Below, piece by piece: positions 43,109-46,113 of a stretch of 64,000 nt of DNA. The first letter of the stretch is position 1. The number at the start of each line of letters is the position of its first letter. The stretch lies in NCBI RefSeq assembly GCF_029213205.1, contig NZ_JARGNH010000002.1, forward strand, positions 62,001-126,000, given 5' to 3'. The notes beneath the pieces are model-generated. The model saw only the letters and a program-made list of their open reading frames with translations. It did no database searches and had not been told where the DNA came from. Position numbers and translations under genes: made by a program. Source of the DNA: Pseudooceanicola sp. (GTDB taxonomy: Bacteria > Pseudomonadota > Alphaproteobacteria > Rhodobacterales > Rhodobacteraceae).

Positions 43109-44182
43109 TCAGGCTATGCCGCCCTGCACCAGCCGTTCGGCCAGTCGCGCATAGGCCTCGGCCATCGGCCCGTCGCCTGCCGCAATCGGGGTGCCAGCAT
43201 CCCCGGCCAGTCTTGTGTCCAGGTCGAGCGGCAGTTCGCCCAGGAACGGCACCCCGATCCGCGCCGCCTCGGCCGCCACGCCGCCCTGACCAAAGGGATG
43301 GGATTCATGGCCGCAGTTCGGGCAGGTAAAGCTGGCCATGTTCTCGATCAGCCCCAGAACCGGGGTGTTCAGCGTATTGAACATGTCGATCGCCTTGCGG
43401 GCGTCGATCAATGCCACGTCCTGCGGCGTCGACACCACCAGCGCCCCGGTCATCTGGGTGCGTTGGCACAGGGTCAGCTGCACATCACCGGTGCCCGGCG
43501 GCAGATCGACGATCAGCACGTCCAGCTTGCCCCAGGCCACCTGCCCCAGCATCTGCTGCAACGCCCCCATCAGCATCGGACCACGCCAGACCACCGCCTT
43601 GCCCTCCTCCATCATCAGTCCGATCGACATCAGGGTGACGCCATGGGCATGCAGCGGCTCGATGATCTTGCCATCGGGCGAGGCCGGACGTTTGTTCACC
43701 CCCATCATCTTGGGCTGCGACGGCCCATAGATATCGGCATCAAGCAACCCGACCCGGCGCCCGGCCCGCGCCAGCGCCACGGCGAGGTTGGCGCTGACCG
43801 TCGATTTGCCGACGCCGCCCTTGCCCGAGGCGACGGCCAGAATACGATCCACCCCCGAAGGCCGTGTCGGTCCTGCCTGCGGAGTCGGGTGGCCGCCGAT
43901 CTTGAGGCTGGGCGGCGGGGCTTTCGCCGCTGCGGGCCCATGCGCGGTCAGGGCGACCACCACGGCGCTGACCCCGTCCAGCGACAGCACCGCCCGCTCC
44001 GCCGCCGCACGCAGCGGTTCCATCTGCGCCGCGAGTCCGGGCGACGGCGCCTCGATCACGAACCGCACTTTGTCGCCCTCTATACTCAACGCCCGGACCA
44101 TGCCGCTGGCGGTCAGGTCGCCGCCGGTCGGCAGCTCGATTTTCGATAACGTGGCGTAAATCTCGTCTTTGGTGATCGTCAT
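43109..44182 (-). CDS. mrp: Mrp/NBP35-type iron-sulfur cluster carrier ATPase
   Basis: A 357-residue P-loop NTPase (ApbC/Mrp). N-terminal MIP18-like domain (residues ~1-85), a proline-rich linker, then the deviant Walker [10 protein letters not shown] at 120-128, [35 protein letters not shown] and the cluster-binding CPNC near residue 287. It carries 4Fe-4S clusters to apoproteins in the cytoplasm. It is upstream of the dcw leader on the same strand, with a strong hairpin between. Confidence 0.95.
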
Positions 44183-44417
44183 GATCCCTCACTCAGCAGT
44201 TCACAGGCCGGATGCTCAAGATCGCGGCAATTTCCAAACAGAACTGAAAAAACTCAACGTTTTCAATTGCCGTTAGGTCAACACTTCATATGCAATTGCT
44301 GCATAGCAGCATTGCCGAACCGGGCATTGTGCAGGTGCAGCATTAGCGTATCTTTAGATCAACAGACGCCGCAGAGCCAAGGGGTTCACCAGCGGCAGAC
44401 GATGAAAGGCAAAGACA

Positions 44418-44636
44418 ATGACCATGTTGACCGACACCCACGCAGGCGCAACCCATAGTTCGGGTTTGTTCAGCCGCGTGATCGCAACCATTTCGACCCG
44501 GCTGCACAACTACGCCGCCTACCGGCGCAACCTGGCCGAGCTTGCGGTCCTGTCTGACCGCGACCTGAAAGACATTGGTGCCAATCGTTCGATGATCCGG
44601 TCGATGGCCCACGAGGCGGCTTACCGCCCGGTGTAA
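44418..44636 (+). CDS. DUF1127 small basic protein (CcaF1-like)
   Basis: A 72-residue protein with the DUF1127 core LAVLSDRDLKDIGANRSMIR. In R. sphaeroides a DUF1127 protein of this size (CcaF1) precedes the CcsR RNAs on one stress-induced transcript and binds RNA, modulating RNA maturation and turnover. The same order is seen here: three hairpin-pair RNAs start 10 bp after the stop. An AAAGG site precedes ATG 44418 (a second ATG is two codons on). A TATCTT box at 44349-44354 could be the -10 of an alternative-sigma promoter; the -35 is not clear. Confidence 0.88.
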   Translation: MTMLTDTHAGATHSSGLFSRVIATISTRLHNYAAYRRNLAELAVLSDRDLKDIGANRSMIRSMAHEAAYRPV

Positions 44637-44646
44637 TTTCCGAGAT

Positions 44647-44718
44647 CAGATGGCCCTCTCCTCCTCCCTGGGTCTTCTGTGAACTAGCGGCAGCGCGATC
44701 CTCCCTCAGCGCTGCCGC
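44647..44718 (+). ncRNA. CcsR / cuckoo-type RNA unit 1
   Basis: Two hairpins joined by 7 nt. Hairpin A (44647-44679): imperfect 10-bp stem, loop with TCTCCTCCTCCCT. Hairpin B (44687-44718): perfect GCGGCAGCGC/GCGCTGCCGC stem, loop with the reduced CCTCCC. Such CU-rich loops mimic the anti-Shine-Dalgarno and define the CcsR family. An extra stem (CGGGGC/GCCCCG, 44729-44748) lies before the next unit. Confidence 0.82.
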
Positions 44719-44754
44719 CTCTTCTCCCCGGGGCTGGGTTACGCCCCGCGAATT

Positions 44755-44827
44755 CGCCAACCTCTCCTCCTCCCTGGTTGGCGTCTGCAAGGCCGACAGT
44801 GTCTCTCCTCCTCCCTGACACTGTCGG
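44755..44827 (+). ncRNA. CcsR / cuckoo-type RNA unit 2
   Basis: Hairpin A (44755-44783): perfect CGCCAACC/GGTTGGCG stem. Hairpin B (44793-44827): perfect 11-bp CCGACAGTGTC/GACACTGTCGG stem. Both loops are the identical 13-mer TCTCCTCCTCCCT; linker is 9 nt. Stem sequences are unrelated to those of the other units but fully paired, which supports conserved RNA structure. Confidence 0.86.
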
Positions 44828-44865
44828 TTCTGCCAGACATAGGGCCCGCAAGGACCCAAACTGAT

Positions 44866-44940
44866 CGGCCGCTCTCTCCTCCTCCCTGAGCGTCCGTAAA
44901 ATGAACGGCGGCGCCTCTCCTCCTCCCTGGCGTCGCCGTT
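44866..44940 (+). ncRNA. CcsR / cuckoo-type RNA unit 3
   Basis: Hairpin A (44866-44896): CGGCCGCTC/GAGCGTCCG with one mismatch. Hairpin B (44904-44940): 12-bp AACGGCGGCGCC/GGCGTCGCCGTT with one G-U pair. Both loops are TCTCCTCCTCCCT; linker 7 nt. The last hairpin doubles as a terminator. Confidence 0.86.
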
Positions 44941-44947
44941 TTCTTTT
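44904..44947 (+). terminator. Terminator of the DUF1127-CcsR transcript
   Basis: The second hairpin of unit 3 is followed at once by TTTTCTTTT (44939-44947), giving a classic intrinsic terminator. From here to 45075 nothing else is seen. Confidence 0.85.
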
Positions 44948-45075
44948 GCCCCCTTCAGACAATGCAAAACGCCGCGCACCGGTCAGCCGGGCACGGGTCT
45001 GCGGCGCTTGGCGCCGATAAATCAGGAATGACCGCGCCGCCCGGTCACGGGCCACGCGGTTCTAATGGTTGGAAC

Positions 45076-46113
45076 TCAGATGGCGTCGGCGGTTTGCACC
45101 AGGGTCTTGCCCAGATTGCCGCCCGCCATCATGTCGATATAGGACTCCGGCGCGATTTCGATGCCGCGACGAATATCCTCGCGGTAGGTGATCTGCCCGG
45201 CCCGATACCAGGCTGACATTTCGCGCAGGAACTGGTCGAAATGGCTGTCGACAAAATTGCCCACCGACAATTCATGCACGGTGACATTGCGTTCGGCCCG
45301 CAGAGCAGCCGAACGTTCCATAATCGCCACCTTACCCAGCGCCGATTTGCCCTCAGGCCGTTCGCCGATCAGTCCGCAAATCGTCATGCGAGCGTTCTGG
45401 TTGAACAATGCCGATGTCGCATCGAACAGGGCGCCGCCGACATTCTCATAATAGACGTCGACCCCGTCCGGGCAGGCAGCGGCCAGATCCTCGGCCAGAG
45501 TTGGCGACAGATGCGACACGCAGGCGTCATAGCGCAGCTCGTCAACCGCAACCCGCAGCTTTTCCGGCCGACCGGCGATGCCGACGGCGCGGCAGCCCTG
45601 GACCTTGGCAATCTGGCCGACGATCTGCCCGACGCCGCCGGTGGCTGCCGAAACCACCACGGTTTCACCCGGTTTCGGCTGACATTGCACCATCAGCCCG
45701 GCATAGGCGGTCAGCCCGTTCATCCCCAGCACCCCCAGCGCTGTCGACACCGGGCCGAGATCCGGGTCAATCTTGCGAGTCTTCATGTAGGGATGCTCGG
45801 GAATGCCCTCGCCGATCAGCCCGTATTCGGCCCAACCGTTCAGGCAATGCACATAATCGCCCACGGCCCAGGCCGGGCTATTGCTTTCGATCACCTGCGC
45901 AACGGTGCGGGCATGGCAAAGCTCGCCCGGCTTTTCCAGCCCGCGCACCCGATAGCCCCATTGGTAGGGATCGAGCGAGATATAGAGCGTGCGGGTCAGC
46001 GCCTGGCCCGGTCCCGGCTGCGGAATCGGCGCCTCGTTGAAGTTGAAATTCGCAGGCACCGGCGTCTCGCGCACCGGCACCTCTGACAGGGTCCAAAAGC
46101 GATTCGTTTCCAT
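45076..46113 (-). CDS. NADP-dependent oxidoreductase (zinc-free MDR family)
   Basis: A 345-residue medium-chain reductase like leukotriene B4 12-hydroxydehydrogenase or CurA. N-terminal YISLDPYQWGYRVRG, mid-protein LGVLGMNGLTAYAGL, nucleotide site VVVSAATGGVGQIVGQIAK, NADP loop GIAGRPEKLRVAVDELRYDA and YYENVGGALFDA. The zinc-binding cysteines of alcohol dehydrogenases are absent. It likely reduces the double bond of enones or aldehydes. It is divergent from glpD with a 389-bp region between. Confidence 0.92.
   Translation of the reverse strand: METNRFWTLSEVPVRETPVPANFNFNEAPIPQPGPGQALTRTLYISLDPYQWGYRVRGLEKPGELCHARTVAQVIESNSPAWAVGDYVHCLNGWAEYGLIGEGIPEHPYMKTRKIDPDLGPVSTALGVLGMNGLTAYAGLMVQCQPKPGETVVVSAATGGVGQIVGQIAKVQGCRAVGIAGRPEKLRVAVDELRYDACVSHLSPTLAEDLAAACPDGVDVYYENVGGALFDATSALFNQNARMTICGLIGERPEGKSALGKVAIMERSAALRAERNVTVHELSVGNFVDSHFDQFLREMSAWYRAGQITYREDIRRGIEIAPESYIDMMAGGNLGKTLVQTADAI

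Follow-up and report, generated by a model that had tools for sequence, protein, structure and literature searches.

In Rhodobacter sphaeroides, the DUF1127 gene ccaF1 and the CcsR RNAs are made as one stress-induced transcript from an RpoHI/RpoHII promoter, and this transcript is cut by RNase E; CcaF1 serves as an RNA-binding helper and the CcsR RNAs act on flhR, as stated in the available parts of the reports (PMC10253847, PMC8625941, PMC8307010). A two-hairpin form, RS0680a, is described in an excerpt of PMC3927594, and the part of PMC4504443 on cuckoo RNAs gives them 2–4 hairpins per RNA, whose stems pair but are variable. Excerpts on NfeR1 of Sinorhizobium meliloti describe loops that act redundantly in silencing mRNAs at the ribosome-binding site, and transcription that is activated by LsrB (PMC10746234, PMC7143759). 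In Brucella and Agrobacterium, the targets of VtlR/LsrB include DUF1127 genes and AbcR sRNAs, with a 15-nt box as the binding motif, according to passages of PMC12595884 and PMC7486931. According to an excerpt of a 2025 paper (PMC11975290), LsrB, known as VtlR in B. abortus, seems to occur in Rhizobiales only, and its gene shares an operon with trxB.

The locus analyzed here lies in a 64,000-nucleotide stretch of Pseudooceanicola sp. DNA, hereafter the window. Similar to ccaF1-CcsR1-4 of R. sphaeroides (CIN1), it combines a short DUF1127 gene with tandem RNAs that carry CCUCCUCCC loops and a probable terminator at the end, all on one strand. Different from the four units of R. sphaeroides, however, the window has three, of which one loop is shortened, and it has stems between the units; it also misses the Rfam cut-off for CcsR1. 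With alpha-r14/NfeR1 of S. meliloti (RF02344, ar14), whose Rfam cut-off is likewise missed, it shares identical CCUCCUCCC loops, divergent stems and, from the excerpts at hand, an LsrB-type promoter site. NfeR1, however, is a three-hairpin RNA with an RpoD promoter of its own, and the consulted parts of its description mention no DUF1127 gene, whereas the window has two hairpins per unit and several units behind a DUF1127 gene. The features that appear to be shared with the VtlR/LsrB control of Brucella and Agrobacterium are a LysR protein, the 15-nt box and a DUF1127 target. Different from those systems, the box here precedes one promoter for both the DUF1127 gene and the anti-Shine-Dalgarno (anti-SD) array and deviates from the motif, and the LysR gene of this genome is not beside trxB. 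This kind of locus is already known from alphaproteobacteria, and the window contributes one more CIN1 array, from a marine relative.

The DUF1127 gene and the hairpin array

Behind the DUF1127 gene, six hairpins, each with a CCUCCUCC-type loop, form three two-hairpin units. With two additional stems between the units, the array contains eight hairpins in total. The features are as follows (A and B denote the first and second hairpin of a unit).

44418–44636, forward strand: DUF1127 gene (ccaF1-like), 72 amino acid residues; Pfam PF06568, 41.9 bits with a cut-off of 23.3
44647–44679, forward strand: unit 1 hairpin A, loop TCTCCTCCTCCCT; from minimum-energy fold and covariance model
44687–44718, forward strand: unit 1 hairpin B, shortened loop GATCCTCCCTCA with CCTCCC kept; from minimum-energy fold and covariance model
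44728–44750, forward strand: inter-unit stem 1, without anti-SD loop; from minimum-energy fold
44756–44782, forward strand: unit 2 hairpin A, loop TCTCCTCCTCCCT; from minimum-energy fold and covariance model
44783–44838, forward strand: unit 2 hairpin B, extended stem, loop TCTCCTCCTCCCT; from minimum-energy fold and covariance model
44842–44857, forward strand: inter-unit stem 2, weak; from minimum-energy fold
44867–44895, forward strand: unit 3 hairpin A, loop TCTCCTCCTCCCT; from minimum-energy fold and covariance model
44896–44949, forward strand: unit 3 hairpin B, loop TCTCCTCCTCCCT; from minimum-energy fold and covariance model

Five of the anti-SD loops are TCTCCTCCTCCCT and one is the shorter GATCCTCCCTCA (UCCUCCC in RNA). 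Both the sequence and the fold agree with the original prediction, which had listed six hairpins, five with identical loops and one with a loop shortened to CCTCCC. The motif CTCCTCCYY occurs 12 times in the window where 1.77 matches are expected; 10 of the 12 are in the array, two overlapping ones per exact loop. Genome-wide there are 12 CTCCTCCCT sites, 5 of them in the array. The region 44634–44960 folds at −142.6 kcal/mol (z = −8.5), and none of 100 shuffles was equally low. The linkers within units, counted by eye on the minimum-energy fold, are 7–8 nt between core stems; in this fold, units 2 and 3 have B stems that reach into the linker. The three units of two hairpins fit the 2–4 hairpins per RNA of cuckoo RNAs.

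A T run starts at 44939 within the 3′ part of unit 3 hairpin B, and the two together are a probable intrinsic terminator. A simple terminator scan, which takes only loops of 3–8 nt, found none here, where the loops are of 13 nt. At least five T in 7 nt were found for 86 of the 107 last B hairpins of related loci vs. 14 of the 245 other B hairpins, so that a terminal T run is common in the relatives, in keeping with the role proposed earlier for the last hairpin.

A covariance model was built from units of named relatives with the window held out; 40 of 74 unit references entered its alignment. The three units of the window scored 85.7, 71.0, and 59.8 bits (E values of 4.2e-14, 1.9e-11, and 2e-09), and the next match in the window scored 15.9. 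In the whole genome, the three units were the only matches at E up to 0.001 among the 150 scored of 1428 first-look candidates. The covariance-model check that the original prediction had proposed as able to overturn it was thus run, and the held-out model accepts all three units. At gathering thresholds, no Rfam family was found in the window. At a relaxed threshold, RF02791 (CcsR1) scored 43.3, 35.3, and 34.3 bits on the three units, missing its gathering score of 65.3, and RF02344 (ar14) scored 44.4, 39, and 37.2 bits, missing its gathering score of 58.8. The CcsR1 gathering score was attained in only 10 of 295 genomes of the family (strict-filter search), so the CcsR1 model seems narrow. 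The Pfam match, the loops and the held-out model all agree with the CcsR/cuckoo layout behind a DUF1127 gene that had been recognized before. Counting the missed Rfam gathering scores and the one shortened loop of six against it, we put the probability that this is a CIN1/CcsR-like (cuckoo RNA) locus at roughly 85%.

The first loop motif begins 23 nt after the end of the DUF1127 gene, on the same strand. Among named genomes, the DUF1127 protein has its closest relatives in Primorskyibacter flagellatus and Pseudooceanicola nanhaiensis (58% identical each). Among the 10 loci closest to the CcsR1 model, the DUF1127 protein had matches in 8, with identities of 32–42%. The genome has two other DUF1127 genes, and the loci fetched for them have neither a loop array nor the promoter box described below at up to 3 mismatches. 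For DUF1127 relatives, a protein-protein action is reported and CcaF1 can substitute for Agrobacterium proteins, according to an excerpt of PMC12501420; the DUF1127 protein may be an RNA-binding helper or may act on other proteins.

Convergent with the array is an NADPH-dependent reductase-like gene (45076–46113, reverse strand), whose best NCBIfam match is below its cut-off. No match to it was found in 90 related loci, which span only 1.5–4 kb of flank.

Arrays in related genomes

The two-loop pattern CCTCCTCCC-N25-55-CCTCCTCCC was found in 218 of 295 genomes of the family, sampled at about one genome per genus. The reversed pattern gave 0–4 matches per genome and strand and is not a clean control, because CCCTCCTCCTCCC-form loops match it too. 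A DUF1127 gene was present within 250 nt upstream in 26 of the 30 loci picked by the loop pattern alone and in all 10 loci picked by the CcsR1 model; since 80 of the 121 loci were found via their DUF1127 gene, only these 30 and 10 loci bear on the association. The loci are also non-independent, as many are from relatives of Ruegeria and Pseudooceanicola. Four loci (L040, L049, L051, and L053) have anti-SD hairpin pairs without a DUF1127 gene just upstream.

The number of exact loops per array ranged from 2 to 26 among 123 arrays, those with fewer than two exact loops being left out, and was most commonly six (31 arrays). Thus, three units are ordinary. The original prediction had pointed out three units in place of four and one decayed loop; both are seen, the former as ordinary variation and the latter as a feature that is not peculiar to the window. 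Gaps of 95–122 nt between exact loops, 21 in total, were found in 18 of 118 loci including the window, as if one hairpin without the exact motif lay within each. Moreover, in 127 of 223 inter-unit linkers (loop spacing of 58–90) the fold was better than that of 19 or all of the 20 dinucleotide shuffles, so an extra stem between units is common in such arrays. Inter-unit stem 2 of the window folded better than 16 of 20 shuffles, and inter-unit stem 1 fell outside this test because the loop before it has no exact motif. The single extra stem noted earlier, between units 1 and 2, is present at 44728–44750, but a second, weaker one lies between units 2 and 3, and stems of this kind are common.

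For the analysis of pairing, hairpins of related loci were assigned to A or B by their spacing; not included were 55 hairpins whose role was unclear, 26 that had a close neighbor on each side and 2 B hairpins located at locus edges. The B hairpins (n = 352) were 71.7% paired vs. 56.3% in shuffles and the A hairpins (n = 354) 71.2% vs. 49.3%, and in neither case did any of 500 shuffles, which ignore the kinship of the loci, reach the observed value. When partners were slid by −1, 1, 2, or 3 positions, pairing was 37.4–51.2% for B and 43.0–57.9% for A. In addition, 13 of the 15 consensus pairs of the 40-unit alignment showed changes on both sides. Pairing is thus kept in the relatives, as anticipated from the window, but the view that only loop and pairing are kept needs qualification: B stems tend toward GCGGCG-type arms, whereas A stems are variable. 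The range of array sizes, this difference between A and B hairpins and the inter-unit stems are descriptive additions to what was known of such arrays.

Promoter sites and a candidate LsrB/VtlR-type regulator

Upstream of the DUF1127 gene are the following sites.

44297–44314, forward strand: palindromic site TGCTGCATAGCAGCATTG, conserved upstream in relatives
44300–44314, forward strand: VtlR-like 15-mer inside TGCTGCATAGCAGCATTG, with 2 of 15 mismatches to the published VtlR-binding motif read as its reverse complement
44326–44343, forward strand: second conserved site ATTGTGCAGGTGCAGCAT, with TGCA-N6-GCAT at 44330–44343, overlapping the likely −35
44347–44354, forward strand: presumed −10-like block CGTATCTT, conserved

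A simple sigma-70 scan found nothing at the promoter of the window, which has the conserved TTGTGCA and the −10-like CGTATCTT. A stretch of 170 nt before the DUF1127 start was compared at 110 loci, obtained from the 117 DUF1127-linked arrays after second arrays of a locus and those without a suitable ATG or 170 nt of upstream sequence had been dropped. The TGCTGCATAGCAGCATTG palindrome was present with up to 5 of 18 mismatches at 103 of the 110 loci and in 8 of 2200 shuffles, which here and below preserve base composition only, not dinucleotides. The second block reads ATTGTGCA-NN-YGCAGCAT; its TTGTGCA-type core was found at 99 of the 110 loci, aligned at 87, and the palindrome lay 30–31 nt above it at 81 of these 99. 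The 15-nt VtlR-binding motif, taken from an excerpt of PMC12595884, occurred with up to 3 mismatches at 97 of the 110 loci vs. 1 of 2200 shuffles and 1 of 306 segments from farther upstream. TGCA-N6-GCAT, by which the available part of PMC10746234 describes the LsrB site in the NfeR1 promoter, was found at 96 of the 110 loci vs. 7 of 2200 shuffles. The window does not match the strict VtlR consensus GCAT-N3-TG-N3-T, drawn from a passage of PMC7486931, as it has AG in place of TG; the strict form was found at 12 of the 110 loci and a relaxed form, with A or T in that place, at 73. In its own genome, TGCATRGCWGCATTG had 28 matches at up to 2 mismatches, the sole exact one being this promoter, and the reversed pattern had 2. 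In L026–L028, loci that belong to other families of the class, no box was found at up to 3 mismatches.

Divergent from the DUF1127 gene is an Mrp/ApbC-like ATPase gene (43109–44182, reverse strand), whose best NCBIfam match is below its cut-off. This gene was matched in 60 of 90 related loci, so the conserved promoter sites frequently lie between it and the DUF1127 gene. The box was present at all 29 loci without and at 45 of the 56 loci with an Mrp match; the conserved site goes with the DUF1127 array, not with the divergent Mrp gene.

A candidate regulator was sought through trxB. Of 30 trxB loci collected from the class, at least 8 had an MDWDKL-type LysR gene just behind trxB; this is a lower bound, as no trxB frame was recognized in 8 of the loci and the pattern overlooked at least one further LysR start. 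Queried with a trxB-linked LysR protein, the genome of the window returned an LsrB/VtlR-type LysR gene at C4:44807–45673 (48% identity, 295 bits), followed by another LysR at 30% and 117 bits. The C4:44807 protein was 36–51% identical to the eight trxB-linked LysR proteins. By eye, its gene adjoins a purL-like frame, and the trxB of this genome (C42:149586) has no adjoining LysR frame, its neighbors being AsnC-type and sulfate adenylyltransferase-like. In a tree of LysR proteins, other LysR proteins of the genome fell inside the LsrB/VtlR group; as these are on very long branches, the tree is not decisive. We take the C4:44807 protein as the putative LsrB/VtlR counterpart, its orthology resting on scores. 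At E up to 1e-80, 287 of 295 genomes of the family had matches to this protein, of which some of the weaker may be other LysR proteins. Such near-universal matches question LsrB as a Rhizobiales-only regulator. Counted by eye, arrays were present in 211 of the 257 genomes whose best LysR match was stronger than 1e-139 and in 3 of the 30 in which it was weaker; of the 8 genomes that gave no match at 1e-80, 4 had arrays. That LysR divergence and array absence go together may reflect simple relatedness.

We propose for Rhodobacteraceae that transcription of the array is under an LsrB/VtlR-type LysR regulator, a proposal to which we give about even odds. The regulator would act at 44297–44314 and 44326–44343, together with a sigma factor that reads the adjoining −35/−10. 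Counted against this step are the missed strict consensus, the 27 further inexact matches to TGCATRGCWGCATTG in the genome, the position of the LysR gene away from trxB and the tree, as well as the control of ccaF1-CcsR by RpoHI/RpoHII in R. sphaeroides and the absence of the word LysR from PMC8307010. The promoter sites may instead belong to another regulator, for example a sigma factor of the RpoH type by itself or a different LysR protein, which we hold possible with some reservation. Several loci nearest to the CcsR1 model have a −10 of the CCCATGTT type, which we take to look like that of RpoH, where the window has CGTATCTT. The use of RpoHI/RpoHII in R. sphaeroides, as given in part of PMC10253847, and the mismatch of the window with the strict VtlR consensus also suit another regulator. 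However, the palindrome, kept at 103 of 110 loci, lies 30–31 nt above TTGTGCA at 81 of 99 loci, a position not covered by a sigma site. Its sequence is close to the motif recognized by the Rhizobiales regulator of DUF1127 genes and NfeR1 (excerpts of PMC12595884 and PMC10746234).

If bound, the conserved LsrB/VtlR-like promoter sites would be new. Among the papers covered by our literature search, none links an LsrB/VtlR regulator, or LysR, to CcsR RNAs, although an earlier mention is possible; in searches for VtlR/LsrB with Rhodobacter or CcsR, none among the matches listed had regulator and CcsR together. The two papers with both LsrB and Rhodobacteraceae deal with the proteogenomics of Epibacterium and the comparative genomics of Endozoicomonas. 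The conserved sites give a concrete handle on what turns cuckoo RNAs on outside Rhizobiales. In the wider form of the proposal, which could fall either way, DUF1127-cuckoo arrays of Rhodobacteraceae would be direct targets of a near-universal LsrB/VtlR-type LysR regulator, which with an arginine-rich small protein and anti-Shine-Dalgarno RNAs would form an ancient alphaproteobacterial module whose unit number is tuned by local tandem duplication (2–26 loops).

Proposed function of the array

By analogy with the described systems, one transcript starting upstream of the DUF1127 gene would carry a CcaF1-like message and, in its 3′ UTR, three CcsR-like RNAs, and it would probably be stress-induced. 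RNase E would cleave this transcript at its unpaired linkers with the help of the DUF1127 protein and thereby free the individual units. The CCUCCUCCC loops of these would pair with purine-rich Shine-Dalgarno sequences (GGAGGAGG) and thereby block translation of target mRNAs. The repeated units would provide dose and redundancy, and the last hairpin would end transcription.

The array could also be a sponge or decoy, in which an unprocessed 3′ UTR binds SD-bearing RNAs, purine-rich parts of sRNAs or a CU-binding protein and the loop number sets the capacity. The variation in loop number among the 123 arrays, while the loop core is kept, would fit such a role. Moreover, the arms of later hairpins had a likeness of 0.65 (A) and 0.70 (B) within a locus but of 0.35 (A) and 0.47 (B) between loci, which points to local copying of units, as expected if dose matters; the first B hairpins had an arm likeness of 0.51 between loci. 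A sponge is nevertheless unlikely, since processed CcsR1-4 exist in R. sphaeroides and target flhR (parts of PMC8307010 and PMC8625941) and the loops of S. meliloti NfeR1 redundantly silence mRNAs (excerpt of PMC10746234). More improbable still is a role of the hairpins in cis on the DUF1127 mRNA, by stabilization of its 3′ end or by feedback via its own Shine-Dalgarno sequence: the first exact loop is 17–32 nt past the stop codon in 93 of the 117 DUF1127-linked arrays and the gene precedes 26 of the 30 pattern-picked loci, but 4 of these 30 lack a DUF1127 gene immediately upstream, no array accompanies either of the other two DUF1127 genes in the genome, and silencing in trans is shown in relatives (excerpt of PMC10746234).

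Array size differs widely among genera and the loop is constant, which makes the question of dose accessible by comparison. One related locus (L042; G202:C1, around 335000) has 26 exact anti-SD loops in near-identical multi-hairpin repeats, apparently a recent tandem expansion.
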